This document shows positions 33,588-51,682 of a stretch of DNA of 64,000 bases, one piece after another. The notes below the pieces were generated by a model. That model was not told where the DNA came from, ran no database searches, and saw nothing but the letters and a program-made list of their open reading frames with translations. Location of the stretch: assembly GCF_001592305.1 (NCBI RefSeq), contig NZ_BCWR01000001.1, forward strand, positions 620,001-684,000. Direction: 5' to 3'. Origin of the DNA: Hydrogenophaga taeniospiralis CCUG 15921 (GTDB taxonomy: Bacteria; Pseudomonadota; Gammaproteobacteria; Burkholderiales; Burkholderiaceae_C). A program made the translations under genes and the position numbers. Every line of letters starts with the position of its first letter. Positions within the stretch are counted from its first letter, which is position 1.

Positions 33588-33604
33588 TTCCCTTTTTCGG
33601 CGTG

Positions 33605-34294
33605 TCAGTTCTTGGCGCGTGGCTCACGCCAGATTTCCAGCAGCCAGGTTTCCAGGTCGTGCACCGGTCTTCCGGTGGCTTGGGCCACTGCTGCCCTGTA
33701 CGGTGGCATGTTGGTGCACTCCAGCACCAGCTGCTGCACCTCGGGATGCCTCGCCACCAGGCGCATCGCCGCCTCCACCACATCGTCCGACGCCTGCCGC
33801 AGGTCCAGCTGGGTATCGTCGGCCAGGATACGCGACTGCAGCTCACAACCCGGTCGAAGGCCTTGCACGGGGGTACCCGCCGGTACGCCCGCCCGCTGCA
33901 GCAACCCGGCCTGCAACGAGGCGGCGTCGAAGGTCACGATGCCGGGTGACGACAGTCGGGCGCATTGCAGCAGGCTGGAGGTGATCACAGGCACGTCTAC
34001 CGCAGCCTGCAACTCGGCCTGCCAGCCAGCGAGAAAGCCGCAGCTGGTGGTGATGAGCCGCGCCCCCTGACGGGCCAGCGAGCGGGCAGCCTCCACAAAG
34101 GGACCGAGCAGCGCCGGGTCCTGCGCCTGCACCACGCGCCGGGCCGAAGCCCCCGCCACGGTGACGAAGCGCGCCGGGATGCCGGCACGCGCCCAGGTGG
34201 CCGGGCTGCCGATGTCGCCCGGCGGGCGCGGGAAGCGGGTGTCCAGCAGGATCACGCCCAGGCATTCCGGGGCGACGGGATTCGAGTCCTTCAT
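33605..34294 (-). CDS. Aspartate/glutamate racemase family protein
   Basis: A 229-residue Asp/Glu racemase-superfamily protein. The two catalytic cysteines expected in the fold are visible: ARLITTSCGFLAGWQ near residue 87 and VLECTNMPPYRAAVAQ near residue 200. The family includes racemases of Asp, Glu and hydantoins, and maleate isomerase, so the substrate cannot be fixed from sequence alone. The ATG at 34294 is 47 bases from the divergent D-amino-acid dehydrogenase-like gene. This arrangement suggests a link between racemisation and D-amino-acid oxidation. A longer frame to 34354 adds unrelated residues and was not used. Confidence 0.78.
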   Translation of the reverse strand: MKDSNPVAPECLGVILLDTRFPRPPGDIGSPATWARAGIPARFVTVAGASARRVVQAQDPALLGPFVEAARSLARQGARLITTSCGFLAGWQAELQAAVDVPVITSSLLQCARLSSPGIVTFDAASLQAGLLQRAGVPAGTPVQGLRPGCELQSRILADDTQLDLRQASDDVVEAAMRLVARHPEVQQLVLECTNMPPYRAAVAQATGRPVHDLETWLLEIWREPRAKN

Positions 34295-34341
34295 GGCGAT
34301 AAGCTGCGGGTTGACAACACCAACGATGGGAACATGGAAGC

Positions 34342-35610
34342 ATGACGCAGGCAAGGCTTGGACAACAGGTGGTGGTGCTGGGCGCCGGCATGGTGGGCAT
34401 CGCTTGCGCGCTCTCGTTGCGCCAGCGCGGCATGCAGGTCACCGTGATCGACCCGCTGGGGCCGGGCGCAGCGACTTCGCACGGCAACGCAGGCGTGCTG
34501 GCGCGCAGCTCGCTCATGCCGTTCAACCACCCCCGGCTGTGGTCGCAGTTGCCGGGCCTGCTGCGCGGGCGCAGCCCGGGCTTTCGCTACGACCCGCTGG
34601 CGATGCTGGGCCAATGGCGCTGGGGCCTGTCGTTCCTGTCCCATGCGCGCGAGCAGGTCTTCCGCGAAACCACGACCGCGCTGGACGCGCTGATCCGGCA
34701 CTCGGGGGAGCTGCATCGCCGGTGGATGGACGCGGCGGGCATCGCCCACCGCCGCCGCGACGAGGGCTGGCTGTTTCTCTACCGCAGCGAGGCGGGGTTC
34801 GAGGCGGGCGCTTTCGGGCGCGAGACCCTGGCCCGTTTCGGCGTGGCCACGGCCACGCTGGCGCCGCACGAACTGCACGACCTCGAGCCGCACCTGCGGC
34901 CCATCTTCCGCAAGGCCCTGTGGGTGAAAGACGCGAGTTCGGTGGACAGCCCGGGCGAGGTCGTGCGCGCCTACGCACGCTGGCTGCTGGCACTGGGCGG
35001 ACGGCTGGAAACCACCGCCGCCACACACCTGCAACGGAACGATGGTGGCTGGTCCGTGGGCACGGCCGACGGGCGAAGCTCGCGGGCCGACCAGGTGGTG
35101 GTGGCGCTGGGCCCGTGGTCGCGCGATTTCCTTCGGCAGCAGTTCGGATTGAAGCTGCCCATGGGCTTCGAGCGCGGCTACCACCGGCACTTCACGCCAA
35201 CCCCAGGCGCGACGCTGAACCGCCCGGTCTACGACACGGCGGCAGGCTATGTGTTGGCGCCCATGGCACAAGGCTTGCGCCTGACGTCCGGCGTGGAGCT
35301 CAACGCGCAACATGCGCCACCGAGGCCAGCGCAACTGGACGCCGCCGAGCGGGCCGCGCGCGAAGCGCTGCCCCTGGGCGAGCGCACCACGGAGCCCGAC
35401 TGGCTGGGCAGCCGCCCCACCCTGCCCGACAGCCGCCCGATGGTGGGCGCGTGCCCAGGACAACCCGGTGTCTGGTTGGCGCTGGGTCACCAGCACATCG
35501 GGTTCTCGACCGGACCGGGCACCGGTGAACTGCTGTCCCAACTCATGCTGGGCGAGCCCACCACCCTCGACCCGATTCCTTTCAGGCCGCAGCGTTTCTT
35601 GCGAGCCTGA
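34342..35610 (+). CDS. FAD-dependent D-amino-acid dehydrogenase (DadA-like)
   Basis: A 422-residue flavoprotein of the DAO family. The FAD-binding site is at the N-terminus (VVVLGAGMVGIACALSLRQRG, then VIDPLGPGAATSHGNAGVLA), and the C-terminal GHQHIGFSTGPGTGELLSQLM closes the FAD fold as in DadA. Such enzymes oxidise D-amino acids to keto acids and pass electrons to the respiratory chain. The substrate is unknown. It is divergent from the racemase-like gene and ends nine bases from the convergent TRAP permease gene. Similar DadA-like genes occur next to hydroxyproline and D-amino-acid racemase genes. Confidence 0.82.
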   Translation: MTQARLGQQVVVLGAGMVGIACALSLRQRGMQVTVIDPLGPGAATSHGNAGVLARSSLMPFNHPRLWSQLPGLLRGRSPGFRYDPLAMLGQWRWGLSFLSHAREQVFRETTTALDALIRHSGELHRRWMDAAGIAHRRRDEGWLFLYRSEAGFEAGAFGRETLARFGVATATLAPHELHDLEPHLRPIFRKALWVKDASSVDSPGEVVRAYARWLLALGGRLETTAATHLQRNDGGWSVGTADGRSSRADQVVVALGPWSRDFLRQQFGLKLPMGFERGYHRHFTPTPGATLNRPVYDTAAGYVLAPMAQGLRLTSGVELNAQHAPPRPAQLDAAERAAREALPLGERTTEPDWLGSRPTLPDSRPMVGACPGQPGVWLALGHQHIGFSTGPGTGELLSQLMLGEPTTLDPIPFRPQRFLRA

Positions 35611-35619
35611 TGCGCCAGC

Positions 35620-36915
35620 TCACATCTTCCCGGGCAGCCACATCACGATCTGCGGAAACCACCAGAGCAGGCACACGGCGAGCACCATGAGCAGGAAGTA
35701 AGGCAGACAGACCATGGCGATCCAGTTGATCTCGCGCTTGGTCATGCCCTGCAGCACGAACAGGTTGAAGCCCACCGGCGGCGTGATCTGCGCCATCTCC
35801 ACCACGATGACGACGAAGATGCCGAACCAGATCAGGTCTATGCCGGCGGTCTGCACCGTCGGGATCAACACGCCCATGGTCAGCACGATCATGGAAATGC
35901 CGTCGAGGAAGCAGCCCAGCAGGATGAAGAACAGCGCCAGCGCGATCAGCAACAGCCCCGGCGACAGGCCCAGCGAACCCACCCACTCGGCGAGGTGGCG
36001 CGGCAGCCCGATGTAGCCCATGGACAGCGTGAGGAACGCCGCCCCGGCGAGGATCAGCGCGATCATGCAGTACAGCCGCGTCGCACCGAGCAGCGCGGCC
36101 TTGAAGTTCTGCCAGGAGAGCGTCTTCTGGTAAGCCGACAGCATCAGCGAACCGGCCACGCCGATGGCGGCCGCCTCGGTGGCGGTGGCCACCCCGAGGT
36201 AGATCGAGCCAATCACACCGCCGATCAGCACCACCACCGGAATCAGTTCGCTGGAAGCGCGCAGCTTGTCGGTGAAACTCATGCCGGCATCGGCCTGCGG
36301 GATCTTGTCGGGGTTGAGCAGCGCCCACACCATCAGGTAGCCGCTGAACAGCCCGGCGAGCATCAGGCCCGGGATCATGCCCGCGACGAACAGCTTGGCG
36401 ATCGACACCTCGGCGGCCACGCCATAGACGATCATCACGATGGAGGGCGGGATCAGCAGCCCCAGGGTGCTCGCGCCGCCCAGTGAACCGATGACCCGCT
36501 CCGGCGGATACCCGCGCTCGGTCAGCTCGGGAATCGTCATCTTGCCGATGGTGGCGCAGGTGGCCGCCGACGAGCCCGACACCGCCGCAAAGATGGTGCT
36601 GCCCAGAATATTGGTGTGCAGCAGCCGGCCCGGCAGCACGTTGACCCAGGGCGCCAAGCCCTTGAACATGCTTTCCGACAATTTGGTGCGGAACAGGATC
36701 TCGCCCATCCAGACGAACAGCGGCAGCGCGGTCAGCGTCCAGCTGCTGGCCGAGCCCCAGATGGTGACGGCCATCGCGTCGCCTGCGCTGCGCGAGGAAA
36801 ACAGCTCCATGCCGATCCAGGCCACGCCCGCCAGCGTGAGACCGATCCAGACGCCGCTGCCCAGCAACGCAAACAAGGCCACGATCAACAAACCGGTGAC
36901 CGCCATTTCATTCAT
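35620..36915 (-). CDS. dctM: TRAP transporter large permease subunit, set 1
   Basis: A 431-residue permease with about a dozen hydrophobic segments, the ion-coupled subunit of a TRAP uptake system. It starts NEMAVTGLLIVALFALLGSG, has FAAVSGSSAATCATIGKMT, GGASTLGLLIPPSIVMIVYG, and VATATEAAAIGVAGSL, all hallmarks of DctM. The ATG at 36915 has GGAGACC upstream and overlaps the small permease by eight bases. It is closely related to the second set at 46747-48045, with the same motif spacing, so these are paralogues. The solute may be a carboxylic acid. Confidence 0.93.
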   Translation of the reverse strand: MNEMAVTGLLIVALFALLGSGVWIGLTLAGVAWIGMELFSSRSAGDAMAVTIWGSASSWTLTALPLFVWMGEILFRTKLSESMFKGLAPWVNVLPGRLLHTNILGSTIFAAVSGSSAATCATIGKMTIPELTERGYPPERVIGSLGGASTLGLLIPPSIVMIVYGVAAEVSIAKLFVAGMIPGLMLAGLFSGYLMVWALLNPDKIPQADAGMSFTDKLRASSELIPVVVLIGGVIGSIYLGVATATEAAAIGVAGSLMLSAYQKTLSWQNFKAALLGATRLYCMIALILAGAAFLTLSMGYIGLPRHLAEWVGSLGLSPGLLLIALALFFILLGCFLDGISMIVLTMGVLIPTVQTAGIDLIWFGIFVVIVVEMAQITPPVGFNLFVLQGMTKREINWIAMVCLPYFLLMVLAVCLLWWFPQIVMWLPGKM

Positions 36916-37414
36916 GGTGGGTCTCCGATCCGTCGAAGCGTTGACGCTGGCCACGGGCCTCCAGCACCCATTCGTCCACAAAGGCAATGAACAGCACCAG
37001 CGTGCCCAGCGCCATCGCCAGCTGGGGAATCCACAGCGGCGTGGCGTCGTTGCCGGTGGAGATGTCGTTGAACTCGAGCGACTGCCAGACCAGGCGCACA
37101 GCGAACCAGGCAAACAGGCCCGAGAGCAACACGGCCACGCTCAGCGACCACAGCTCCAGGCCCCGGCGGGCACGGCCTTTGAGCTTGCCCAGCACCAGCG
37201 TGACGCGGATGTGCTCGTTGCGCTTGAGCGTGTGCGCCAGCGCCAGGAAGCCGGCGGCGGCCATCGCGTAGCCGGCGTAGGCGTCCGTGCCCGGCACGTG
37301 GAACTGGAACTGCCGCCCCAGCACCGACAGCAGCACCATGACCAGCACGCCGATCATGAACACCGCCGCGAGCCAGGCGCAGCCGTCGTACAGGGCATTC
37401 AGCGTGCGTCGCAT
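36908..37414 (-). CDS. dctQ: TRAP transporter small permease subunit, set 1
   Basis: A 168-residue protein with four membrane helices, the DctQ subunit that bridges the binding protein and the large permease. It starts RRTLNALYDGCAWLAAVFM, has VLGRQFQFHVPGTDAYAGY and FLALAHTLKRNEHIRVTLVL, the usual DctQ pattern with the GxDAYAGY turn. ATG at 37414 is chosen; a GTG at 37432 overlaps the preceding stop codon (GTGA). It overlaps dctM by eight bases. Confidence 0.9.
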   Translation of the reverse strand: MRRTLNALYDGCAWLAAVFMIGVLVMVLLSVLGRQFQFHVPGTDAYAGYAMAAAGFLALAHTLKRNEHIRVTLVLGKLKGRARRGLELWSLSVAVLLSGLFAWFAVRLVWQSLEFNDISTGNDATPLWIPQLAMALGTLVLFIAFVDEWVLEARGQRQRFDGSETHHE

Positions 37415-37428
37415 GGTGCTGGCCGGCC

Positions 37429-38403
37429 TCACTTGCGGAACGCGTCGACCATGGCCTGCCCTTCAGGGCCGGCTTTGGCAAGCCACTCCTTGAGCAAGGT
37501 GTCGCCCACCTTCTGCATGTCGGCCTTCAGCTGTGCAGAGGCGGGCAGGATCTGCATGCCGCCAGCCTTGAGCTTGTCCAGGCTTTCGCCGTTCGCCTTC
37601 TTGCTCGCTTCCCAGCCGCGGGTCTCGGCGTCCGCCGCGGCCTTCCGCACCGCGTCCTGCGTCGGCTTGTCCAGCGCGTCGAAGGCCTTCTTGTTGACCA
37701 GCAGCGCGTTCTTGGGCAACCAGGCCTGGGTGTCGTACCAGTACTTCACGTGTTCGTACAGCTTGGCGTCGGCGCCGGTGGAGCCGCTGGACATCATGCT
37801 TTCGGTCACGCCGGTGGCGAAGGCCTGGCTGACCTCGGCCGCCTGCACCGTCACCGGTTGCGCACCCACGAGTTCGGCGATGCGCGCGGTGGCCGGGCTG
37901 TAGGCGCGCCACTTCATGCCCTTGAGATCGGCGGCGCTGTTCAGCGGCTTCTTGCTGTACACGCCCTGCGGCGGCCATGGAACCGCGTACAGGACCATCA
38001 TGCCCTGCTCGGCCAGCTTCTTCTCCAGCACGGGACGCTGCACCTTCCACAGCTTGGCCGCCGCTTCGTAGCTGTCGGCCAGGAACGGCAGGCCGTCGGC
38101 GCCGAACAACTGCCACTCGTTCTGGTAGTTCACCAGCAGGATCTCGCCAGCCTGCGCCTGACCGCCCTGCACCGCGCGCTTGATCTCGGGTGCCTTGAAC
38201 AGCGATGCGTTGGCGTGCACCGTCATCTTGAGCTTGCCGCCGCTGGCCTTGTCCACGTCGGCCGCGAACTGGCTGATGTTGACCGTGTGGAAGTTGGTGG
38301 CCGGGTACGCGGTGGCCAGATCCCACTGGGTCTGGGCGAAGGCAGACGTCGACAGCGCGAGCGCGGCAGCGACCATCGAGAGTTGGAATGCGCGACGTTT
38401 CAT
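37429..38403 (-). CDS. dctP: TRAP transporter substrate-binding protein, set 1
   Basis: A 324-residue periplasmic binding protein that captures solute for the set 1 permease. The signal peptide is KRRAFQLSMVAAALALSTSAFA. The mature part has TQWDLATAYPATNFHTVN, then GDxLPFLADSYEAAAKLW-type DctP elements, and the ligand-contact arginine region WRAYSPATARIAELVGAQP. The three DctP proteins in this window align along their whole length and are paralogues. GGAGCT precedes the ATG at 38403. It is divergent from the winged-helix regulator. Confidence 0.93.
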   Translation of the reverse strand: MKRRAFQLSMVAAALALSTSAFAQTQWDLATAYPATNFHTVNISQFAADVDKASGGKLKMTVHANASLFKAPEIKRAVQGGQAQAGEILLVNYQNEWQLFGADGLPFLADSYEAAAKLWKVQRPVLEKKLAEQGMMVLYAVPWPPQGVYSKKPLNSAADLKGMKWRAYSPATARIAELVGAQPVTVQAAEVSQAFATGVTESMMSSGSTGADAKLYEHVKYWYDTQAWLPKNALLVNKKAFDALDKPTQDAVRKAAADAETRGWEASKKANGESLDKLKAGGMQILPASAQLKADMQKVGDTLLKEWLAKAGPEGQAMVDAFRK

Positions 38404-38514
38404 GGGAGCTCCGGTGGGTGAGGTGGAACGGATCGCAGGCAGCTGCTGCGGGAAAGGGTGCATGAACTGTAGGCGTCGAGCCGGCGGATTGTGATCCGTG
38501 ATTTCCCTTATCGT

Positions 38515-38527
38515 CAACAAATTGTTG
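38515..38527. promoter_or_regulatory. Palindromic operator candidate between dctP and the winged-helix regulator
   Basis: CAACAAATTGTTG has five-base arms around AAT. On the minus strand a TTGACG hexamer begins inside it, 18 bases from CACAAT; on the plus strand TTGGCA begins just at its right end, 16 bases from TCTAAA. A regulator bound here could control both genes. Confidence 0.5.
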
Positions 38528-38578
38528 GCAAATTATCGGCAAAAAATCTAAACTCAGCGCCACCGCAGGAGAGCATGC

Positions 38579-39127
38579 ATGGCCAAGATTCCCAAAGCAA
38601 CAACCGCGCCCGTCGCGAAGACGCCCCAATCACCCATCGTGTCGTCGGCACACCTGGTGTCGCCCCAGAGCGCGGAGATGAGCGAGTTCGAATTCGGGCT
38701 GATCGTGGCGAGCAACGCCTTCCACCGCTGGGTGGTGCACTGCATGTCGGCCGCGGGGTTGAAAGACCTGATGCCGCTGGACGTGCTGGTCTTGCACCAC
38801 GTCTCGCACCGCGCGCGGGACAAGCGCCTGTCGGACATCTGCTTCATCATGAACATCGAGGACACCCACCTGGTGAACTATTCGCTCAAGAAGCTGGTGA
38901 GCCTGGGCGTGGTGGCGTCCAGCAAGTCGGGCAAGGAAGTGACCTACGCCGCCACCGAGGCGGGCAGCGCCAGCGTGCAGCGCTACCGCGAGATCCGCGA
39001 GCAGTGCCTGATCCAGGCCATGCACGTCGACGACGGGCTCAACAAGGACATCGGCGAGCTCGCGCGCCTGCTGCGCGTGCTCTCGGGCATGTACGACCAG
39101 GCGGCGCGGTCCGCGGCTTCATTGTGA
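38579..39127 (+). CDS. Winged-helix transcriptional regulator, MarR-like
   Basis: A 182-residue DNA-binding protein. After a Pro/Ala-rich N-terminal tail, residues about 45-140 form a winged helix: LDVLVLHHVSHRARDKRLSDICFIM, then LVNYSLKKLVSLGVVASSKSGKEVTYAATEAG, which is the recognition helix and wing of MarR/PadR-like proteins. The last part is helical and probably dimerises. It is divergent from dctP of TRAP set 1, and AGGAGA precedes the ATG. It likely controls that transporter; the ligand is unknown. pxpB-C-A follow on the same strand after a repeat. Confidence 0.82.
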   Translation: MAKIPKATTAPVAKTPQSPIVSSAHLVSPQSAEMSEFEFGLIVASNAFHRWVVHCMSAAGLKDLMPLDVLVLHHVSHRARDKRLSDICFIMNIEDTHLVNYSLKKLVSLGVVASSKSGKEVTYAATEAGSASVQRYREIREQCLIQAMHVDDGLNKDIGELARLLRVLSGMYDQAARSAASL

Positions 39128-39138
39128 AACACTGTGAA

Positions 39139-39228
39139 GCCCCCCTGCGCCGCTTCGCGGCTTCCCCCCGGAGGGGGGACGCAGCTGGTGGCCCGGCGGA
39201 GCCGGTTCCACGGCTGCCCTGGGTCGGG
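39139..39228 (+). repeat. Dispersed GC-rich intergenic repeat, copy C
   Basis: It lies just after the winged-helix gene and shows the same order of blocks as copies A, B and D: CCCCC..GCGCCGCTTCG, a CCCCCC-GGA-GGGGGG hairpin, GGCGGAGCCGGTTCCACGGC and a CCTGGGTCGGG end. It lies between two genes on the same strand and may reduce read-through into pxpB. Confidence 0.65.
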
Positions 39229-39290
39229 CACGCGCTCCGGCAATGCCATTGGACTCCCCCTTCGCAGCTTCCCTGCCCGGGCCTTGCTCC

Positions 39291-39324
39291 CTCGCCCCTC
39301 TGGGGAGAGGGCTGGGGTGAGGGG
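39291..39324. repeat. REP-like palindromic element
   Basis: CTCGCCCCTCTGGGGAGAGGGC is followed by TGGGGTGAGGGG. This C/T-rich to G/A-rich element is a familiar intergenic sequence in many proteobacteria; here it is seen once. It sits 41 bases before pxpB. Confidence 0.5.
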
Positions 39325-39365
39325 CTGCCGCCGAGCCCGGGCCTCCTTCGCGCACACCTCCACCC

Positions 39366-40121
39366 ATGAGTCCTGACATGCCCCCCCGCCTGCTCGCTCT
39401 CGGCGACAGCGCCTGGACGCTGGAGTTCGGCAGCACCATCGACCCGGCCATCAACGCCCGCGTGATGGGCCTGGCCGAACGGGTGGGGCAGGCGCGTGCA
39501 TCGGAGCCGCTGATGGCATCTGTCACCGATGTGGTGCCCACCTTCCGCTCGCTCACGGTGCATTACGACCCCCTGGCCACCGACGCTGCGGCGCTGGGTG
39601 AGCGCCTGCGGGTGCTGGCCCAGGCCGGGGGGCAGGACATGCGGCCAGGCCGTCTCTGGCACCTGCCGGTGTGTTTCGACGCCGACTTCGCGCCCGATCT
39701 TCCCCGGCTCGCCGAAACCAAGGGCCTGAGCCCTGACGAGGTGATCCAGCGCCTGCTCGCCGCCACCTTCCATGTCTACATGCTCGGCTTCCAGCCCGGC
39801 TTTCCGTACATGGGCGGCGTGCCGCCCGAGCTGCACATGCCGCGCCTGCCGGCGCCGCGCCAGAAGGTGCCGGCGCAATCGCTGGCCGTGACCGGCGAGA
39901 TGTGTTCGGTCTACCCCTGGGAAAGCCCCGGCGGCTGGAACCTGATCGGGCGCACGCCCGTGGTGTTGTTCGATCTGCGGCATGCCGACCAACCGGCCCT
40001 GCTCGCGGCGGGCGACGACGTGCGCTGGTACGCGGTGGACCGCACCACGCACGACGCACTCGCCGCCAGCATCGCCCAGGGCCTGCCGCGTGAAACCTTT
40101 CTGAAGGCGCCTGGCGCATGA
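39366..40121 (+). CDS. pxpB: 5-oxoprolinase subunit PxpB
   Basis: PxpB forms, with PxpA and PxpC, an ATP-dependent 5-oxoprolinase that opens 5-oxoproline to L-glutamate; it corresponds to KipI/AHS1 proteins. The 251-residue chain opens RLLALGDSAWTLEFGSTIDP, and has the cyclophilin-like core FHVYMLGFQPGFPYMGGVPPEL and EMCSVYPWESPGGWNLIGRTP near residues 135-205. The stop overlaps the pxpC ATG by four bases. The ATG at 39366 was chosen because the family alignment begins there. Confidence 0.93.
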   Translation: MSPDMPPRLLALGDSAWTLEFGSTIDPAINARVMGLAERVGQARASEPLMASVTDVVPTFRSLTVHYDPLATDAAALGERLRVLAQAGGQDMRPGRLWHLPVCFDADFAPDLPRLAETKGLSPDEVIQRLLAATFHVYMLGFQPGFPYMGGVPPELHMPRLPAPRQKVPAQSLAVTGEMCSVYPWESPGGWNLIGRTPVVLFDLRHADQPALLAAGDDVRWYAVDRTTHDALAASIAQGLPRETFLKAPGA

Positions 40122-41155
40122 ACGGCCTGATCGAGATCGTGCAACCGGGCATCGGCACCACCGTGCAGGACCGGGGCCGCGCGGGCCACCGGCACCACGG
40201 CATGCCGCTCTCCGGCTGGCTCGACGGCCCGCTGGCCCGGGCCGCCAACGCCCTGCTCGGCAACCCGCTCGACGAGGCCGTGCTGGAGCTGCGCGGCATG
40301 GGCACCGTGCTGCGCGTGGCGGCCGGGCCGGTGCGCGTGGCACTGGCGGGCCGCATCGCCGCCACCTGCCAACGCGGCGATGGCGGCCGCAGCCCCCTGC
40401 CCGCCTGGCACAGCGCCACGCTGCGCGAGGGCGATCAGCTGCAGCTCGGCCCGGCCGAGAGCGGCTGCGCCTACCTGGCCGTGGCCGGCGGACTGCTGGT
40501 GGAACCCCAGCTCGGCAGCCGCTCCAGCTACTGGCGCGCCGGGCTGGCCGGTGTGCTGGGCCGCGCCTTCCGCCCGGGCGACACGCTGCCCTGCGGCACT
40601 TGGCATCTCACCGACCCGAGGGAGTGGCGTTGCCGCTCGCCGTGGACCGCCAGCGACGGCTCGGTGCGCGTGCTGCTCGGCCCGCAGCAGGACCATTTCA
40701 CGCCCGACGCCATCGCGCAGTTCCTGAACCAGGACTGGGAGGCCACCGCCGCGCAGGACCGCATGGGCCTGCGATTTCAGGGCCTTGCCCTGGCCCATAT
40801 CAACCCCGAAGCGGCGGACATCGTGTCCGACGGCGTGACACCCGGCGCGATCCAGGTGCCCGCGAACGGACAACCCATCGTGCTGCTCGCCGACGGCCAG
40901 ACCGTGGGCGGCTACCCCAAGATCGCCACCGTGATCAGCGCCGACCTGCCCCGGCTCGCCCACCTGCGGCCGGGCACGCGCGTGCGCTTCGAAGCCGTGA
41001 GCCAAGCAGCGGCGCACCGCGCCCTGCAGGACGAACGCGAGCGCTGGCAACGCTGGCTCGCCTCGCGCGAGATCTACCTGCCGCCCGGCACGGTGGACGA
41101 AACCGCGCTCTACGCCTCCAATCTGGTCGACGGCATGCTGCGCGCCGACCCCTGA
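40118..41155 (+). CDS. pxpC: 5-oxoprolinase subunit PxpC
   Basis: PxpC is the KipA/AHS2-type subunit, sometimes annotated as biotin-dependent carboxyltransferase. The 345-residue chain starts IEIVQPGIGTTVQDRGRAGHRHHG, then GRSSYWRAGLAGVLGRAF, LLGPQQDHFTPDAI, and VSDGVTPGAIQVPANGQPIVLLADGQT near residue 240-265. These segments are the conserved core of the family. It overlaps pxpB by four bases and lies 53 bases before pxpA, so the three form one operon. Confidence 0.94.
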   Translation: MNGLIEIVQPGIGTTVQDRGRAGHRHHGMPLSGWLDGPLARAANALLGNPLDEAVLELRGMGTVLRVAAGPVRVALAGRIAATCQRGDGGRSPLPAWHSATLREGDQLQLGPAESGCAYLAVAGGLLVEPQLGSRSSYWRAGLAGVLGRAFRPGDTLPCGTWHLTDPREWRCRSPWTASDGSVRVLLGPQQDHFTPDAIAQFLNQDWEATAAQDRMGLRFQGLALAHINPEAADIVSDGVTPGAIQVPANGQPIVLLADGQTVGGYPKIATVISADLPRLAHLRPGTRVRFEAVSQAAAHRALQDERERWQRWLASREIYLPPGTVDETALYASNLVDGMLRADP

Positions 41156-41208
41156 GCGGGTAGGAGTCTCTTGCCCATGTCCGCTCACCCCCTGACCCGG
41201 AGCACCTC

Positions 41209-45000: not shown

Positions 45001-45730
45001 AGAACAGTTTCACGCCGGGCATCTCGCCCGCCACCTGGTCCACATAGCGCCGCAGGATGGGCGAGAGGTAGGCGTCCACCACGGTCGTGTCGCCCCGGCT
45101 CACAAACTTCATCATCGGGCTGGTCTGGTGCGAGGTGCTCACCTGCGTGAAGCCCAGCTCGCGCGCGATGCGCGCCGCCGCCTGTTCGTGAGCGGTGTAG
45201 CGGTAGCCATGCATGAAGACGATGGCCACGCTGCGCAGACCGGCGTCGAACGCGGCCCAGAGGCGCTCGCGCAGGTGGGCTTCGTCGAGCGGCAGCACCA
45301 CGTCGCCGTGGGCACCCACGCGCTCCTGTGCCTCGATCACGCGCTCGTACAACAGCTCGGGCAACACGATGTGGCGGTCGAACAGGCGCGGCCGGTTCTG
45401 GTAGGCGATACGCAGCGCGTCGCGAAAGCCGGCGGTGGTCACCAGCAGCGTGGGTTCGCCCTTGCGCTCCAGCAGCGCGTTGGTCGCCACCGTGGTGCCC
45501 ATCTTCACGCACTCGACCTGTTCGGGCGTGATGGGCTCGCCGGCTTTCAGGCCCAGCAGGTGGCGAATGCCCGCCACCGCCGCGTCCCGGTATTGCTCGG
45601 GGTTTTCGCTCAGCAGCTTGTGCGTCACCAGCGATCCGTCGGGGCGCCGGGCCACGATGTCGGTGAAGGTGCCGCCCCGGTCAATCCAGAACTGCCAGCG
45701 GCTGCCGTAAGGGGAAGAATGGTCTTTCAT
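42083..45730 (-). CDS. ATP-dependent 5-oxoprolinase, single chain (HyuA-HyuB fusion)
   Basis: A 1215-residue protein like eukaryotic OPLAH. The HyuA half (residues 1 to about 690) starts [19 protein letters not shown], the ATP-phosphate motif, and has [28 protein letters not shown] and [18 protein letters not shown]. The HyuB half begins near residue 690 with [19 protein letters not shown] and has [19 protein letters not shown] and [20 protein letters not shown]. The natural fusion of HyuA and HyuB is usual for 5-oxoprolinase and rare for hydantoinases. ATG at 45730 is the frame start. It lies 12 bases downstream of the orphan dctP, the last gene of the TRAP run. Confidence 0.9.
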
Positions 45731-45742
45731 GGTCTATCGACT

Positions 45743-46705
45743 CTAGCGTTGGAAATAGTAGGGGACGAACAGCTGGTTGGCCTCATGGCCAACGTCTCGA
45801 ATCCATTCGCGGGAAAACTTCTCGCCCATGCGTTTGAGCGCGGCCTCGAACTCCGGCGGTGCGCGCTCCACCTTCATGCCACGGGCCTGGAGTTCGCGCA
45901 GCGAGCTCTTTGAAGCCGCTTCGCTCGCGGCCCAGCCCCGCGCCTCGGCATCCGCCGACGCCTGGAGCACCGACTGCTGCTGCAAAGGGCTGAGCGCATC
46001 AAAGGCACGGCGGTTGACGAAAACGATGTTCTTCGGAAACCAGGCGTTGATCTCGTGGAAATACCCGATATGGCGCCAGGCCTCATTCTCGACCCCCGTC
46101 ACGGCCGAGGTGATCATGTTGTCAATGCGGCCACTGCCCAGGGCCTGGTTCACCTCCACCATCGGCACGTCGACCGGGATAGCCCCCAGCAGCCCGGCGA
46201 TGCGCACCGTGGTCGCGTTGTAGGTGCGCATGCGGGTGCCTTTGAAGTCGGACGCCGAGGCCACCGGCTTGCGGGTGTACAGCCCTTGCGGGGGCCAGGG
46301 CACGGCGTACAGCGCTTTCAGGCCTCGTTGCGCAAAATGGCGCTCGATCAGCGGGCGCTGGAGCACCCACAGGCGCTTCGCATCGGCATAGCTGCCCACC
46401 ACGAAGGGGATCGCGTCGGCGCCCGCGATCGGAAATGCCTTGGCCATGCCGGTCATGATGGACTCGCCCGCCTGTATCCGGCCGTCCTGCACCGCTTGCG
46501 GGATGTCCGCCAGCTTGACCAGTGCATTGTTCGGATGCACCGCCACCTTGAGTGCGCCGCCCGTGAGCCGCTCCACGTCACTGGCGAACCGCACGATGTT
46601 GGTCGTGTGGAAAGAGTTCTCGCCATAACCCGTGGCCAGGGTCCAGCGGGTCTGGGCGTGCACAGCCGATGCCGCGAGCCACGCGGCGATCCAGAGCAGC
46701 TTCAT
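45743..46705 (-). CDS. dctP: TRAP transporter substrate-binding protein, second copy in set 2
   Basis: A 320-residue periplasmic binding protein with signal peptide KLLWIAAWLAASAVHA. It aligns fully with the other two DctP proteins here: RWTLATGYGENSFHTTNIV, YAVPWPPQGLYTRKPVASA, and the arginine/tyrosine binding region MRTYNATTVRIAGLLGAIP. It is more divergent than the other two. It lies 41 bases after dctM of set 2 and 12 bases before the 5-oxoprolinase gene. Its own DctQ/M genes are absent, so it may supply a second specificity to the set 2 permease. GGAGACC precedes the ATG. Confidence 0.88.
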   Translation of the reverse strand: MKLLWIAAWLAASAVHAQTRWTLATGYGENSFHTTNIVRFASDVERLTGGALKVAVHPNNALVKLADIPQAVQDGRIQAGESIMTGMAKAFPIAGADAIPFVVGSYADAKRLWVLQRPLIERHFAQRGLKALYAVPWPPQGLYTRKPVASASDFKGTRMRTYNATTVRIAGLLGAIPVDVPMVEVNQALGSGRIDNMITSAVTGVENEAWRHIGYFHEINAWFPKNIVFVNRRAFDALSPLQQQSVLQASADAEARGWAASEAASKSSLRELQARGMKVERAPPEFEAALKRMGEKFSREWIRDVGHEANQLFVPYYFQR

Positions 46706-46746
46706 GGGGGTCTCCTGGTGAACGGGGATGACCGGTGGCGTGGCGC

Positions 46747-48045
46747 TCAAGCCTGCATCTGGCGAGGCAGCCACAGCACCACGTCGGGCACGAAGTAGGT
46801 GAGCATCACCGCGGCCATCATCAGCACGAACAACGGCCACGCGGTGCGGGCGATCCAGGTCACGTCGCGCTTGGTCAGGCCCTGCAGCACGAACAGGTTG
46901 AAGCCCACGGGCGGTGTGATCTGCGCCATCTCCACCACCAGCACGATGAAGACGCCGAACCAGATCAGGTCGAAGCCCGCGGCCTCGACCGTGGGCAACA
47001 GCACCGCGATGGTCAGCACCACCATGGAGATGCCGTCGAGAAAGCAGCCCAGCACGATGAAGAACACGACAAGCAGCAGCATCAGCGCAAACGGCGACAG
47101 CTGCAGCGCGCCGATGAACTCGGCCAGGTGGCGCGGCAGGCCGATGAAGCCCATGGCCAGCGTGAGGAAGGCCGCGCCCGCAAGGATCAGGCCGATCATG
47201 CAGTAGACTCGGCAGGCCGCCGTCAGCCCGTCCTTGAAGCGCGCCCAGTCCAGCGAACCCTCCATTTTCGCGAGCAGCAACGCACCGCCCACGCCCAGCG
47301 CGGCCGCCTCGGTGGCGGTGGCGATGCCGCTGTAGATGCCGCCCAGCACCAATGCGATCAGCGACACCACGGGGATCAAGTGGCGCGAGGCGTGGATCTT
47401 CTGCCCAAAGCTCATGGCCGCGTCAGCCGCCGGCACCTGGTCCTTGTGGAGCAGTGCCCAGACGACGATGTAGCCCATGAACAGCGCCGCCAGCAGCAGG
47501 CCCGGGATCACGCCGGCCAGGAACAGCTTGGCGATCGACACGTTGGCCGCCACGCCGTAGACGATCATGATGATGGACGGCGGAATCAGCAGGCCCAGCG
47601 TGCCAGCGCCGGCCAGCGTGCCGACGGCGATGTCGTCGGGGTAACCGCGCTTCTGCAGCTCGGGCAAGGTGATCTTGCCGATGGTGGCGCAGGTGGCCGC
47701 ACTGGAGCCCGAGATCGCGGCGAAGATGGTGCAGCCCACCACGTTGGTGTGCAGCAGCCGGCCCGGCAGGCGGTCCAGCCAGGGCGCCAGGCCCTTGAAC
47801 ATGTCGTCCGAGAGCTTGCTGCGAAACAGGATCTCGCCCATCCACAGGAACAGCGGCAGCGCGGTCAGCGTCCAGCTGGAGGTCGAGCCCCAGATGGTCA
47901 GCACCATGCTGTCGCCCACCGGGCGCGAGGTGAACAGCTCCATGCCGACCAGCGCCACCGCGAGCAGCGACAGACCGATCCACAGGCCAGAGCCCAGCAC
48001 CGCGAACAGCAGCACGATCAGGGCCAATGCAATAACGACGTCCAT
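46747..48045 (-). CDS. dctM: TRAP transporter large permease subunit, set 2
   Basis: A 432-residue DctM permease. It opens DVVIALALIVLLFAVLGSGLW and has FAAISGSSAATCATIGKIT, GTLAGAGTLGLLIPPSIIM, IATATEAAALGVGGAL and GFNLFVLQGLTKRDVTW. The whole protein is a close paralogue of set 1 DctM. ATG at 48045 has upstream AAGAGACAC. The gene lies 18 bases after dctQ and 41 bases before the extra dctP. Confidence 0.93.
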   Translation of the reverse strand: MDVVIALALIVLLFAVLGSGLWIGLSLLAVALVGMELFTSRPVGDSMVLTIWGSTSSWTLTALPLFLWMGEILFRSKLSDDMFKGLAPWLDRLPGRLLHTNVVGCTIFAAISGSSAATCATIGKITLPELQKRGYPDDIAVGTLAGAGTLGLLIPPSIIMIVYGVAANVSIAKLFLAGVIPGLLLAALFMGYIVVWALLHKDQVPAADAAMSFGQKIHASRHLIPVVSLIALVLGGIYSGIATATEAAALGVGGALLLAKMEGSLDWARFKDGLTAACRVYCMIGLILAGAAFLTLAMGFIGLPRHLAEFIGALQLSPFALMLLLVVFFIVLGCFLDGISMVVLTIAVLLPTVEAAGFDLIWFGVFIVLVVEMAQITPPVGFNLFVLQGLTKRDVTWIARTAWPLFVLMMAAVMLTYFVPDVVLWLPRQMQA

Positions 48046-48063
48046 GGGGTTGTGTCTCTTGTT

Positions 48064-48573
48064 CTATTCAACGTGAGCGGCTTCGCTCGAAGCCGCGATA
48101 AAGCTGCCGCCGCGCCAGCGCTCGACCAGCGCATGGGCAAACGACAACGCAAACCCGATGCAGCCCAGCGCCATGCCGATCTGCGGCATCCACAGCGGGG
48201 AGGCGTCGGCGGCGGGCGATACGTCGTGCGAGACGTAGGACACCCAGACCAGGCGCACGGCGTACCACGCGATGAACACCGTCAGGCCGGTGGCCGCGAC
48301 CAGGCTCCACCATTCGAGCGCGCTGCGGAAACGAGGCGGCACCCGGTCGAGCAGCAACGTCACGCGGATGTGGTCGCCATGTTTGAGCGTGCCCGGCAGC
48401 GCCAGGAACAGGGCCGCGGCGATCGCGTAACCGGCGTAGGCGTCGAGCCCGGGGACATCCCAGTGCACTTCGCGGGCCACCACGCCCAGCAGCACGGCGC
48501 CAAAGGCCGCCACCATGGCCAGACCCGACAGGGCCATCAGCAGCTTGTAAAAAAGAAAGACGAGTCTGGACAC
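48064..48573 (-). CDS. dctQ: TRAP transporter small permease subunit, set 2
   Basis: A 169-residue DctQ with four membrane helices. It starts SRLVFLFYKLLMALSGLAMV, has VAREVHWDVPGLDAYAGYAIA and FLALPGTLKHGDHIRVTLLL, the same pattern as set 1. I place the start at GTG 48573 because AGGAGC lies nine bases upstream; a much longer open frame to 48720 is non-coding in character. It follows dctP of set 2 by 244 bases holding a hairpin and repeat copy D. Confidence 0.88.
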   Translation of the reverse strand: MSRLVFLFYKLLMALSGLAMVAAFGAVLLGVVAREVHWDVPGLDAYAGYAIAAALFLALPGTLKHGDHIRVTLLLDRVPPRFRSALEWWSLVAATGLTVFIAWYAVRLVWVSYVSHDVSPAADASPLWMPQIGMALGCIGFALSFAHALVERWRGGSFIAASSEAAHVE

Positions 48574-48614
48574 CGCACGCTCCTGGTTCGGCTGCACAAC
48601 CACAAGGGAAAGGA

Positions 48615-48657
48615 CGCGGTGGGGAGGAAGCCCGGATGCCCGGAGCACCCCACCGCG
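48615..48657 (-). terminator. Long-loop inverted repeat between dctP and dctQ of set 2
   Basis: Ten-base arms CGCGGTGGGG and CCCCACCGCG flank 23 bases, which themselves contain CCCGG twice. It lies 42 bases before the dctQ start. There is no T tail. It could act as an attenuator or mRNA stabiliser after dctP. Confidence 0.45.
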
Positions 48658-48716
48658 CGGGAGAAATTTCAGGGAACCTTGCTGCCGGAGCAGCACCCGC
48701 GACGCATGAAGCGATG

Positions 48717-48812
48717 CCACCCCAGGACACCGAGGAACCGGCTTAGCCGGGCCTCAGGTGTCGCCCCCTTTGAGGGGATGGGGGGGGTGACGCGAAGCGC
48801 CGCGGGGGTGTT
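48717..48812 (-). repeat. Dispersed GC-rich intergenic repeat, copy D
   Basis: On the minus strand it shows the block order of copies A-C: CACCCCCGCGGCGCTTCGCG, a C-rich/G-rich hairpin (CCCCTCAAAGGGGG), GGCCCGGCTAAGCCGGTTCC, then GTCCTGGGGTGG. It directly follows the dctP stop codon and lies within the TRAP operon, before the ten-base-arm hairpin. Confidence 0.65.
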
Positions 48813-48817
48813 CCGTT

Positions 48818-49783
48818 TCAGCGGCCGCGGTAGGCCTGGATGATGGCCTGGCCTTCGGCGCCCGCGGTCTTGAGCCAATCGGCGGTCATGGTCTCGCCGA
48901 TGGCGGCGAGTTCCTTCTTCACGCTCTCGGAGGGCGCGGCGATGGTCATGCCCTTGCTGCCGAGTTCCTTGATGAACTCGCCATCGAGCCGCTCGCTGGT
49001 GCTCCAGCCGCGTTGCTCGGCAGCGGCCGCGGCCTTGAGCACGGCGTCCTGCGTGGGTTTGTCCAGCGCATCGAAGGCCTTCTGGCTCACCACGGTGGCG
49101 TTGCGCGGTAGCCAGGCGCTGACCGGGTAGAAATACTTCACCTGCTCATGCAGCTTGCTCTCGACCCCGCTGGCGCTGGAGGTCAGGAAGTTCTGCACGC
49201 CGCCGGTGGCCAGCGCCTGCGGCAGCTCGGCCAGCTGGATCGTCACCGGCTGCGCCTTGAGCAACTGCGCAATGCGCGTGGTGGCCGGGTTGTAGGCGCG
49301 CATCTTGGTGCCCGCCAGATCGGCTGGCTGGTTGACCGGCTTGATGGAATACAGCGACTGGCCCGGCCAGGGCACCGAGAACAGCAGCTTCATGCCCTGC
49401 GAGGCCAGCAGCTTTTCCTGCACCGGCCTGGCGGCTTCGTACAGGCGCTTGGCCGCGGGGTAGCTGGTGGCGAGAAAGGGGATGGAGTCCGCGCCGAACA
49501 GCGGGTTCTCGTTGGCCGCACCCGAGAGGATGAACTCGGCCACCGGTACCTGGCCGCTCTGCACCGCGCGCTTGATCTCGTTGGCCTTGTAGAGCGAGCC
49601 GCCCGGGTGTAGCGTGATCTTGAGCTTGCCGCCGGTGAGCTGGCCCACCTCGTTGGCGAACTGTTGCACGTTCTGGGTCTGGAAGCTGTTGGCCCCATAA
49701 CCGGTGGGCAGGTCCCACTGGGTCTGGGCCGAGGCGCCGGCCGCGAAGGCGGTGGCGCAGAGGCAGAACACGAATTTTTTCAT
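48818..49783 (-). CDS. dctP: TRAP transporter substrate-binding protein, set 2
   Basis: A 321-residue periplasmic binding protein. Signal peptide: KKFVFCLCATAFAAGASA. Mature features are TQWDLPTGYGANSFQTQNVQ, ADSIPFLATSYPAAKRLYEA, LFSVPWPGQSLYSIKPVNQ and the ligand region MRAYNPATTRIAQLLKAQP. It is closer to the set 1 DctP than to the extra copy. AGGAGCC precedes the ATG. It follows the DUF1445 gene by 14 bases and is therefore in one operon with it. Confidence 0.92.
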   Translation of the reverse strand: MKKFVFCLCATAFAAGASAQTQWDLPTGYGANSFQTQNVQQFANEVGQLTGGKLKITLHPGGSLYKANEIKRAVQSGQVPVAEFILSGAANENPLFGADSIPFLATSYPAAKRLYEAARPVQEKLLASQGMKLLFSVPWPGQSLYSIKPVNQPADLAGTKMRAYNPATTRIAQLLKAQPVTIQLAELPQALATGGVQNFLTSSASGVESKLHEQVKYFYPVSAWLPRNATVVSQKAFDALDKPTQDAVLKAAAAAEQRGWSTSERLDGEFIKELGSKGMTIAAPSESVKKELAAIGETMTADWLKTAGAEGQAIIQAYRGR

Positions 49784-49797
49784 GGAAGGCTCCTGGT

Positions 49798-50622
49798 TCA
49801 GAAACTGGCTAGCTGGCTGTTGAGAAGATCGGTGATCAGCATCGCGCCGGGGGCGTGGGTGATGCAGAACGCGGGGCGGGCCTGCTGGATCGCGGCCTGC
49901 GGCGTGACACCGCAGGCCCAGAACACCGGCAGTTCATCGGGCATCACGTCCACCGCGTCGCCGTAGTCCGGCTTGGACAGGTCGGTGATGCCGATCAGTG
50001 ATGGATCGCCGATGTGAACCGGCGCGCCATGCACATTGGGGAAACGCGAGGTGACCTGCACCGCGCGGATCACGGCCGAGGCACGCATCGGCCGCATCGT
50101 CACCACCAGCGGGCCGCTGAACGGCCCCGCCGCTTCGGTGGGCACATTGGTGCGGAACATCGCCACGTTGCGGCCCTGCTCCACGTGGCGCAACGGCAGG
50201 CCGGCTTCCATCAGGGCCTGCTCGAAACTGAAGGAACAGCCGATGACGAAGCTCACCAGGTCGTCGCGCCACAGCGCGGTGATGTCCGAAGGCTCGTCCA
50301 CCAGCTCGCCGTCGCGCCAGACGCGGTAGCGCGGCACGTCGGTGCGGATGTCGATGCCGGCGCCCAGCCGCGGCAACAGGGGCTGGCCCGGCTCGGAGAC
50401 CGCCAGCAGCGGACAGGGCTTGGGGTTGCGCTGGCAGTAGCGCAGGAAGTCGTCCGCCTGCGCCTGCGGCAGGATGACCAGGTTGCCCTGCACATGGTCG
50501 TCGGCCAGGCCGCTGGTGTGCCCGGTCCACAGGCCCTGCCGTATCAGGCGGCGCACATGGCCGGCGTCCTGCATGCCCTCGCGGCCGAACACACGCCGCA
50601 TCTCGTCCGAAGCTGATTCCAC
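49798..50622 (-). CDS. DUF1445 protein, D-glutamate cyclase family (putative hydro-lyase)
   Basis: A 274-residue cytoplasmic protein of the family annotated as putative hydro-lyase or DUF1445. Landmarks are [30 protein letters not shown] near the start, [20 protein letters not shown] near residue 125, [12 protein letters not shown] and the C-terminal [12 protein letters not shown] with [13 protein letters not shown]. The human relative DGLUCY converts D-glutamate to 5-oxo-D-proline; the same reaction here is inference, but the operon ends in a 5-oxoprolinase. The GTG at 50622 has AGGAG six bases upstream. It is the first gene of the TRAP run and lies after a LysR gene on the same strand. Confidence 0.85.
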
Positions 50623-50713
50623 CTTGTCTCCTGTTTCCGGAACATGTCACTGGAGTGACGATGGGCGGATTGTGGAGCGCGATCGGCAGCGCTTCAAACG
50701 AGAAATTTTCTGC

Positions 50714-51682
50714 TTACGTCATCGATTTTTTCGATGCTTTGGATGAGTGCGACGGCGGCGGTAGGCCCGCCGCTGGTGCACCGGCGGCCCGTTTCCGGGA
50801 GCCGTTCTGCGCGTCGACAAAGGCCAGCGCGGACTTCACCACGGTCTCCACGGCTTGCGTGCTGGGGTCGGTGCGGTAGCTCGCGTGGATGGGCAGAGGT
50901 TGCAGCGCGCTGGCGCAGGCGAGCTGGCGCAGGTTGGGGAAGGTCTGCATGCGCTGCACCGCGTGGCGCGGCAGCGTGGCCACGCCGAACCCGCCCTGCA
51001 CCAGTTGCGCCATGGCCGAGATGGACGAGATGGTGTGCACCCGCCGCGGCTCGATGCCCTCCTGGCGGAACAGGTCCAGCAGGGCCACGTGCGGCAGCGA
51101 GCCGCGCTGGAAGGTGAGGATCTCCAGCTCACCCAGTTCGGCCAGGGTGTAGCGGCGCTTGCGGTGCAGCTGGGCGTTGCCCATGAACACCATATCCATG
51201 GCGGGCAACGCGCGGCTGCGCACGCCGTCGGCCGAAGCCGGCAAGGCGGCGAACACCAGGTCCTGGGTGCCACGCTGCACCTGCTCGACCAGGATGGGCG
51301 TGGTCTCCACCGTGAGCTCCAGCGCCAGCCCCGGGTGGTCGGCGCGCAGCTTTTCGATCCAGGGAATCAGCCAGGAATGCAGCACCGACTCGATGGCACC
51401 GATGCGCATGGACACCGCCAGTGCGGCGCCCGACCCCATCTCGGCCTTGGCTTCGCGCTGCAATTCCAGCAGGCGCTGGGCGTAGGTGAAGAAGCGCGCC
51501 CCGGCCGCCGTCAGGCGGAACTGCTTGTCGCGCCGGTCCAGCAGCAACACGCCCAGCTCTTCCTCCAGCGCCGCGATGCGGCTGGACATGGCCGACTGGG
51601 TGAGGAACAGTTTTTCGGCCGCGCGCGTCACGCTCTTGAGCGACGCCACCCAGTAAAAGGCTTCGACAAAACGCAGATTCAT
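50714..51682 (-). CDS. LysR-family transcriptional regulator
   Basis: A 322-residue LysR regulator. The N-terminal helix-turn-helix is NLRFVEAFYWVASLKSVTRAAEKLFLTQSAMSSRIAALEEELG, kept from residue 1 to 45. The effector-binding domain (about 90-290) contains MRIGAIESVLHSWLIPWIEKL. The C-terminal tail is Ala/Pro/Ser/Lys-rich and probably disordered. The ATG at 51682 has AAGGAAT upstream; two upstream in-frame ATGs are less likely. The gene reads towards the DUF1445-TRAP-5-oxoprolinase operon and is likely its regulator. Confidence 0.88.
   Translation of the reverse strand: MNLRFVEAFYWVASLKSVTRAAEKLFLTQSAMSSRIAALEEELGVLLLDRRDKQFRLTAAGARFFTYAQRLLELQREAKAEMGSGAALAVSMRIGAIESVLHSWLIPWIEKLRADHPGLALELTVETTPILVEQVQRGTQDLVFAALPASADGVRSRALPAMDMVFMGNAQLHRKRRYTLAELGELEILTFQRGSLPHVALLDLFRQEGIEPRRVHTISSISAMAQLVQGGFGVATLPRHAVQRMQTFPNLRQLACASALQPLPIHASYRTDPSTQAVETVVKSALAFVDAQNGSRKRAAGAPAAGLPPPSHSSKASKKSMT

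Follow-up and report, generated by a model that had tools for sequence, protein, structure and literature searches.

A probable 5-oxoproline scavenging locus of two modules next to lapB in Hydrogenophaga taeniospiralis, with a candidate 5-oxoproline racemase

Glutamate and glutamine spontaneously give rise to 5-oxoproline (pyroglutamate) (PMC13274462; here and below, papers are cited for what their available excerpts state). In Bordetella, two binding proteins of tripartite ATP-independent periplasmic (TRAP) transporters, DctP6 and DctP7, were solved with 5-oxoproline, DctP7 having a dissociation constant of 0.3 µM, and their genes lie near a gene for a eukaryotic-type 5-oxoprolinase (PMC13274462). 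Bound pyroglutamic acid in Bordetella receptors has been reported elsewhere too (PMC5812351). Here we describe a locus at positions 33605-51682 of a 64,000-nucleotide stretch of Hydrogenophaga taeniospiralis CCUG 15921 (contig NZ_BCWR01000001.1, positions 620,001 to 684,000), called the window below. It is probably a 5-oxoproline scavenging locus, made of two modules that stand side by side next to lapB.

With the Bordetella pertussis DctP6/DctP7 system, the window has in common the binding-protein subfamily and the pairing of a TRAP transporter with a eukaryotic-type 5-oxoprolinase (PMC13274462, PMC5812351, PMC3454389). To the Bordetella genes as described in these excerpts, it adds the three-subunit 5-oxoprolinase PxpABC, a racemase-like gene, a DadA-like dehydrogenase gene, a DUF1445 gene, two regulators and the arrangement in two modules. 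Corynebacterium glutamicum pxpTABC with PxpR resembles the window in combining a dedicated 5-oxoproline uptake system and PxpABC with an adjacent regulator; its carrier belongs to the amino acid-polyamine-organocation (APC) superfamily and its regulator is of the GntR type, whereas the window has TRAP systems, a winged-helix and a LysR-type regulator, and genes for the D side (PMC13274462). Mammalian DGLUCY shares the DUF1445 domain with the window protein, but it also has a DUF4392 domain with racemase-like similarity, while the window protein is DUF1445 alone (PMC5339696). Bacillus subtilis has matches for both PF07286 (DUF1445) and PF03746 (PxpA). Its ycsF-ycsI-kipIA region presumably places DUF1445 (YcsI) beside PxpABC; we know of no TRAP, RAC, DAD or OPLAH gene (working names explained below) in that region.

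Gene identities were taken from Pfam and NCBIfam profile searches with curated cut-offs. RAC, DAD, WH and OPLAH, like module A and module B, are working names set in this analysis. The features of the locus are as follows.

33605-34354, minus strand: RAC, Asp/Glu/hydantoin-racemase-like protein of the PRK07475 family; module B; PF01177, E 2.5e-9; NF005679, 237.8 bits against a cut-off of 231
34342-35610, plus strand: DAD, DadA-like flavin adenine dinucleotide (FAD)-dependent D-amino acid dehydrogenase; module B; PF01266, 1.1e-57
35620-36915, minus strand: DctM1, TRAP large permease, start taken from the translation; module B; PF06808, 8.4e-81
36908-37432, minus strand: DctQ1, TRAP small permease; module B; PF04290, 9.6e-21
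37429-38403, minus strand: DctP1, pyroglutamate-subfamily binding protein; module B; closest to 2PFZ (DctP6), 7.3e-123
38488-38547, no strand: conserved block between dctP1 and the winged-helix gene, candidate operator; holds CAACAAATTGTTG at 38515-38527
38579-39127, plus strand: WH, winged-helix (HTH_27) regulator; module B; PF13463, 3.7e-18
39366-40121, plus strand: PxpB, 5-oxoprolinase subunit; module B; TIGR00370, 155.5 bits against a cut-off of 145.55
40118-41155, plus strand: PxpC, 5-oxoprolinase subunit; module B; PF02626, 1e-76; TIGR00724 above cut-off
41209-41982, plus strand: PxpA (LamB/YcsF), 5-oxoprolinase subunit; module B; NF003814, 360 bits against 226
42083-45730, minus strand: OPLAH, single-chain HyuA+HyuB 5-oxoprolinase-type protein of 1215 residues; module A; PF05378, PF01968, PF19278, PF02538
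45743-46705, minus strand: DctP2, pyroglutamate-subfamily binding protein; module A; 2PFY, 3.3e-70
46747-48045, minus strand: DctM2, TRAP large permease; module A; PF06808, 1.7e-82
48064-48720, minus strand: DctQ2, TRAP small permease; module A; PF04290, 4.6e-18
48818-49783, minus strand: DctP3, pyroglutamate-subfamily binding protein; module A; 2PFZ, 3.1e-98
49798-50622, minus strand: DUF1445 (PF07286/PRK05463) protein of 274 residues, labelled D-glutamate cyclase or putative hydro-lyase; module A; PF07286, 3.7e-69; NF003969, 428 bits; solved relatives 3DB9 and 2PIF
50714-51682, minus strand: LysR-type regulator; module A; PF00126, PF03466; the listed open reading frame extends to 51769, with an ATG at about 51682

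The translations place probable ATG starts near 34294 (racemase), 38403 (DctP1), 46705 (DctP2) and 51682 (LysR), and DctQ1 and DctQ2 complete the two TRAP sets. Repeats within 33480-51870 are mainly the paralogous TRAP genes. A reading made from the sequence alone (the sequence-only reading) had named these genes as one group; all of them were recovered by the profile searches, and the grouping is not due to chance, since these gene blocks are found again in other genomes.

The three DctP proteins were compared with solved structures by phmmer. Each had 2PFZ, 2PFY and 6WGM as its best relatives, with E values of 7e-123 to 3e-76 for DctP1, 3e-98 to 2e-72 for DctP3, and 3e-70 to 1e-62 for DctP2, the weakest scores of the three; the next solved relatives were far weaker (3e-22 to 1e-28). 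The titles of the three entries describe bound pyroglutamic acid or a pyroglutamate-specific protein. They also headed the Foldseek matches of the AlphaFold model of DctP2 (mean predicted local distance difference test score, pLDDT, 89.9). All three DctPs belong to the pyroglutamate-binding subfamily by sequence, and DctP2 also by fold. Because of this membership, 5-oxoproline is the best-supported cargo of the TRAP systems. The sequence-only reading had offered 5-oxoproline and D-glutamate as cargoes, and the subfamily supports the former and lends no support to the latter.

Both modules carry a 5-oxoprolinase. PxpB, PxpC and PxpA are contiguous in module B, and PF07286 and PF03746 have one match each in the genome. 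OPLAH unites HyuA and HyuB domains in one chain and has the single-chain, eukaryotic-type architecture (about 1200-1300 residues). Among 67 genomes of the genus, PxpA was found in 21 and OPLAH, counted at E ≤ 1e-200, in 45; five genomes had both, 16 PxpA only, 40 OPLAH only and six neither (Fisher p 7e-7 for avoidance, in a test which, like the other Fisher tests here, ignores kinship and incomplete genomes). In two loci (L066 and L067; L and G numbers denote fetched loci and genomes), PxpBCA occupies the place of OPLAH in otherwise similar module A sets. This points to two unrelated 5-oxoprolinases taking each other's place next to one and the same transporter. Because it is swapped with PxpBCA, the single-chain Hyu protein gains support for a 5-oxoproline function, and this context makes OPLAH a candidate for the ATP-dependent opening of 5-oxo-L-proline. 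The TRAP systems and both 5-oxoprolinases probably act on 5-oxoproline, and the theme proposed in the sequence-only reading, conversion of 5-oxoproline to L-glutamate, is supported by gene families and context.

The genus loci fetched for comparison were those with DUF1445 or RAC. Of 120 genomes from the order, 14 carry DUF1445 (14 loci, L003-L016, two from G055 and none from the window), and so do 23 of 60 genus genomes (22 loci, L048-L069, besides L005 and the window). RAC was present in 13 of the 67 genus genomes and gave 11 loci (L100-L110), a RAC fragment of G329 being left out of the loci fetched at length. Module A adjoins lapB in 11 loci (L005, L049, L051, L052, L055, L056, L057, L059, L060, L061 and L062), in the order OPLAH, sometimes DctP2, DctM, DctQ, DctP3, DUF1445 and LysR, followed by a second DctPQM set. 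Module B (RAC, DAD, DctMQP, WH and PxpBCA) adjoins lapB in 10 loci (L100-L108 and L110), all with one gene order; L109 is cut by its contig. A module-A-like set lies elsewhere, with lapB not in view, in L063, L064, L066, L067 and L068, and seven further stretches (L048, L050, L053, L054, L058, L065 and L069) are cut. In L110 and L119, both from Hydrogenophaga pseudoflava CZa25-1, RAC matches fall in two frames, which may reflect an interrupted gene or an assembly error.

In the window, modules B and A stand in tandem beside lapB. RAC was seen in none of the 23 fetched DUF1445 stretches of the same genus (L005 and L048-L069). Among the 67 genus genomes, RAC occurs in 13, DUF1445 in 26 and both in five, as good as independently (DUF1445 in 5 of 13 genomes with RAC and in 21 of 54 without, p 1), a point against the reading proposed below. 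Of these five, only the window genome was seen to have the two adjacent; they lie apart in G325, G343 and G347, and in G339 both are on 6-kb contigs, where adjacency is not judgeable. The full combination is unusual, as the sequence-only reading had held. Its single joint pathway is not supported in that form: the locus is composed of two modules, mostly separate in relatives, and a regulator, a TRAP system and a 5-oxoprolinase belong to each of them.

The far side of the site holds a flavodoxin-like FMN reductase or oxidoreductase gene (53939-55084 in the window), found there also in L005 (module A) and in L100, L101 and L111-L114 (module B); in L106, L107, L108 and L110, the roughly 2 kb next to PxpA showed no such gene. 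The stretch from lapB to this gene may be a variable site. Compared with L051, the closest module-A relative, the window is 94.0% identical at 24596-33584 and 95.1% at 48818-51682, but 87.5% at 45756-48666 and 85.3% at 42486-45700, and module B has no counterpart in L051 beyond TRAP pieces. This uneven identity and the lack of a module B counterpart make recombination at the lapB site likely, as judged from the alignments. We did not retain the idea of a horizontally acquired island as such, since one of the two modules fills the site beside lapB in 21 fetched genus loci (11 with A, 10 with B).

RAC is the new part of a system that is mostly of a known kind and built from ordinary families. 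Its model (mean pLDDT 92.9) matched arylmalonate decarboxylase, putative aspartate racemases, hydantoin racemase, allantoin racemase and fungal OpaE (9QBX) in Foldseek, at 11-20% identity among the superfamily matches listed. Two cysteine motifs, TTSCGFL and LECTNMPPY, are present in the window protein; with this predicted fold and a cysteine in each half, RAC qualifies as a member of the Asp/Glu/hydantoin racemase superfamily. Judging by the names of these relatives, free amino acids and cyclic amides are within the range of the fold, and 5-oxoproline and glutamate are both reasonable substrates. In the PRK07475-family members of L073, L077 and L084, Gly replaces the first Cys and the second motif is changed; no TRAP or 5-oxoprolinase gene was seen in these stretches (that of L084 is below 5 kb), and these proteins perhaps catalyze a different reaction.

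The neighborhood of RAC was surveyed by scanning genome contigs with a RAC alignment and keeping the best 80 of at least 592 matching stretches. A 5-oxoprolinase was present in 28 of these 80 loci, a pyroglutamate-type DctP in 35 and either in 37; by a rough arithmetic yardstick, with no control run, a 20-kb stretch from a 5-Mb genome is expected to contain a given single gene about 0.4% of the time. RAC lies 9-155 nucleotides upstream of OPLAH on the same strand in 17 of the 80. The commonest layout, seen in Rhodoferax, Rubrivivax, Rhizobacter, Aquincola and other Burkholderiales, has DctMQP divergent from WH-RAC-OPLAH, and none of the 12 loci of the OPLAH, TRAP and WH class has DAD in the fetched stretch. 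Within the genus, 12 of the 13 genomes with RAC have PxpA, as compared with 9 of the 54 without it (Fisher p 5e-7). A quick tree was built from 80 RACs, those of 79 loci and that of the window. On it, 7 changes account for the 5-oxoprolinase context, 2 of them forced by starred branches, against 24.4 when shuffled. The context is clustered on several branches, including Hydrogenophaga, Sphaerotilaceae and Rhodoferax-type ones. An earlier, partly overlapping sample of the order (L070-L085) had a TRAP system in 6 of 16 RAC loci. In L075, L080 and L085, a TANGO2-family gene adjoins RAC, and a weakly similar DadA-like gene and a pyroglutamate-type TRAP system are present as well.

For DUF1445, the gene context says that it belongs with 5-oxoproline. 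A 5-oxoprolinase accompanies it in 24 of the 26 genus genomes with DUF1445; in the two exceptions, G333 and G349, the contig breaks off there or earlier, with L050 ending inside an OPLAH and L054 inside DctP2. In the order, the link is looser, with a 5-oxoprolinase in 6 of the 14 fetched loci (L004, L005, L008, L011, L013 and L014). In three genomes from a single genus of another family, Pxp genes come straight after DUF1445: PxpBCA in L011 and L014, and in L013 PxpBC, where the contig ends. The sequence-only reading had expected DUF1445 to occur with 5-oxoprolinase genes, Pxp genes included, and clusters of DUF1445 with Pxp genes were found in L011, L013, L014, L066, L067 and L155. A RAC with 47-58% identity to the window RAC stands with DUF1445 and a 5-oxoprolinase or TRAP gene in L148, L149, L155, L157 and L182. 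In L008, L082 and L083, from one genus, DUF1445 is accompanied by a RAC relative that is less similar (33-38%) and scores under the cut-off of NF005679. A phage-integrase-family gene directly adjoins that relative in L008 (3620-4540, another family).

The D-glutamate cyclase label of the DUF1445 protein needs to be read with care. PF07286 is the sole Pfam match in its 274 residues, and 43 positions are invariant among 20 aligned sequences, the window included. The mouse, or mammalian, D-glutamate cyclase combines a DUF1445 with a DUF4392 domain; in the account of its authors, the racemase-like similarity resides in DUF4392, and DUF1445 is conserved only in vertebrates, DUF4392 in invertebrates as well (PMC5339696). 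The reaction converts D-glutamate to 5-oxo-D-proline, which is also the form that people mainly excrete (PMC5339696). A stand-alone DUF4392 protein is a probable Mn-dependent phosphatase, in a paper that also notes the fusion (PMC5132392). The name given to PF07286 in Pfam seems to have been taken from the mammalian protein. The domain assignment of the sequence-only reading stands; its cyclase label seems to come from a two-domain protein, and with DUF4392 absent here we do not file the window protein as a D-glutamate cyclase. We found no study of a bacterial DUF1445 enzyme when the literature on DUF1445, UPF0317 and PF07286 was inspected by titles and abstract starts. The locus illustrates how weakly the name is backed for stand-alone DUF1445 in the literature consulted. 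We put the chance that DUF1445 acts in the cyclase direction at somewhat below even. The known 5-oxoprolinases are L-specific. The human excretion of mainly the D form is consistent with this.

Sequence and context establish the gene families, the module structure and the link of RAC and DUF1445 to 5-oxoprolinases; from these, a mechanism for the two modules can be inferred, its substrates and reactions included. In each, a TRAP system with pyroglutamate-type binding proteins would import 5-oxoproline, and an ATP-dependent 5-oxoprolinase (PxpABC in B, OPLAH in A) would open it to L-glutamate; the winged-helix protein would regulate module B and the LysR protein module A. On the D side, the DUF1445 protein of module A would turn D-glutamate into 5-oxo-D-proline, if its label is right. 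In module B, RAC would epimerize 5-oxoproline to give the L form, and the DadA-like dehydrogenase would remove free D-amino acids. RAC is a tentative candidate for a 5-oxoproline racemase; as such, it would close the stereochemical gap left by a D-glutamate cyclase. RAC, DUF1445 and a 5-oxoprolinase are the gene set that a route from D-glutamate to L-glutamate via the lactam would need. We propose this salvage route (D-glutamate, 5-oxo-D-proline, 5-oxo-L-proline, L-glutamate) as a possibility that falls clearly short of an even chance, and the WH-RAC-OPLAH operon divergent from a pyroglutamate TRAP system as its compact form. No paper on a pyroglutamate, 5-oxoproline or pyroglutamic acid racemase was found in the open-licence literature, nor one combining 5-oxoproline, D-glutamate, catabolism, racemase and bacteria. 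The use of the D form by bacteria is left unexplained by L-specific 5-oxoprolinases, and the RAC-like gene directly upstream of a 5-oxoprolinase gene, found in Rhodoferax, Rubrivivax, Rhizobacter and Aquincola at least, offers a one-protein assay for this gap.

An equal rival of this proposal is that RAC is an ordinary amino-acid racemase acting on free glutamate or aspartate. DAD would then oxidize the D form to the 2-oxo acid, and module B would scavenge D- and L-glutamate as well as 5-oxoproline, with no 5-oxoproline racemase involved. The fold holds Asp and Glu racemases, and dadA is induced with D-glutamate as sole carbon source (PMC6131576). RAC and a close DAD stand together, with neither a 5-oxoprolinase nor a pyroglutamate-type TRAP, in 20 of the 80 loci. 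In L120, DAD and RAC are separated by genes for a family-3 binding protein, a permease and an ATPase; in L135, a permease gene separates the two, and upstream of DAD there is a gene for a family-3 binding protein. Family-3 proteins of ATP-binding cassette (ABC) transporters presumably serve polar amino acids, and such genes among RAC and DAD therefore fit a free amino acid as the RAC substrate. This rival is at odds with the 17 loci in which RAC is directly upstream of OPLAH, and with the lack of DAD in the 12 OPLAH, TRAP and WH stretches. Where a RAC-OPLAH operon occurs without DAD, 5-oxoproline is the preferred substrate, because a conversion of L-glutamate to D-glutamate would have no evident catabolic use there, while flipping 5-oxo-D-proline would feed OPLAH. 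In Variovorax and Achromobacter loci such as L120 and L127, relatives of RAC and DAD occur in a fetched stretch that holds no 5-oxoprolinase; L127 has an ABC transporter of a different kind nearby.

The remaining explanations concern the whole locus. The single linear pathway of the sequence-only reading, in which the TRAP systems import D-glutamate, DUF1445 cyclizes it and either 5-oxoprolinase yields L-glutamate directly, could draw on the Pfam name of DUF1445 and on its clustering with both kinds of 5-oxoprolinase. We consider it unlikely, given the pyroglutamate subfamily of the DctPs and the separation of modules A and B in most relatives. Its cyclization step, moreover, would deliver the D lactam (PMC5339696), the wrong hand for ring opening, and nothing in that model epimerizes it. 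It is similarly improbable that the HyuA+HyuB chain and the TRAP systems serve another lactam or a hydantoin, leaving 5-oxoproline to PxpABC. Hyu families differ in substrate, and the nearest named NCBIfam relatives of OPLAH are caprolactamase subunits, at scores far under the cut-off; however, PxpBCA replaces OPLAH in L066 and L067, and OPLAH and PxpA are largely exclusive across the 67 genomes.

Several results weigh against the 5-oxoproline reading or its RAC step. RAC is far from characterized enzymes, with the superfamily identity in Foldseek not exceeding 20%; it has no match in the PDB at E 0.001, and its family model, NF005679, is itself named hypothetical. Neither a 5-oxoprolinase nor a pyroglutamate-type DctP accompanies RAC in 43 of the 80 loci (20 of the 43 hold just a close DAD), and the Hydrogenophaga RACs lie near DAD-only clades on the tree. 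In L070-L085, 10 of 16 loci are without a pyroglutamate-type TRAP system, and OPLAH appears only in L078, at the edge. DAD scores 141.9 bits with NF001933, under the cut-off of 383, and is DadA-like only. PxpA is above two subfamily models and below three equivalog cut-offs in NCBIfam, and PxpC reaches 212.8 bits against the NF045499 cut-off of 500, yet it is above that of TIGR00724. Eight of the 14 order DUF1445 loci have no 5-oxoprolinase in view (L003, L006, a 6-kb contig, L007, L009, L010, L012, L015 and L016). In Bordetella, the use of 5-oxoproline could not be demonstrated (PMC13274462), and the TRAP membrane parts seem to be mutated (PMC5812351).

The candidate operator is the block between dctP1 and the WH gene, which an alignment of the window with 10 module-B loci (11 rows) shows to be conserved. 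The inverted repeat CAACAAATTGTTG is perfect in four rows (window, L100, L101 and L102), and the other seven have a C in its right arm. An exact match to CAACAANTTGTTG occurs once in the window, where 0.01 is expected. The longer string TCAACAAATYGTTGGCAAA was found in 14 of the 190 fetched loci, all of module B and partly the same genomes twice. The pattern search gave no operator shared with the OPLAH operons: CAACNNNNCGTTGG occurs in 21 of the 190 loci, and the sole WH-RAC-OPLAH locus among them, L161, has it at an unrelated place. Beyond the locus, a protein of 219 residues with neither a Pfam nor an NCBIfam match is encoded at 53264-53923, between the genes of the LysR regulator and the flavodoxin-like oxidoreductase.

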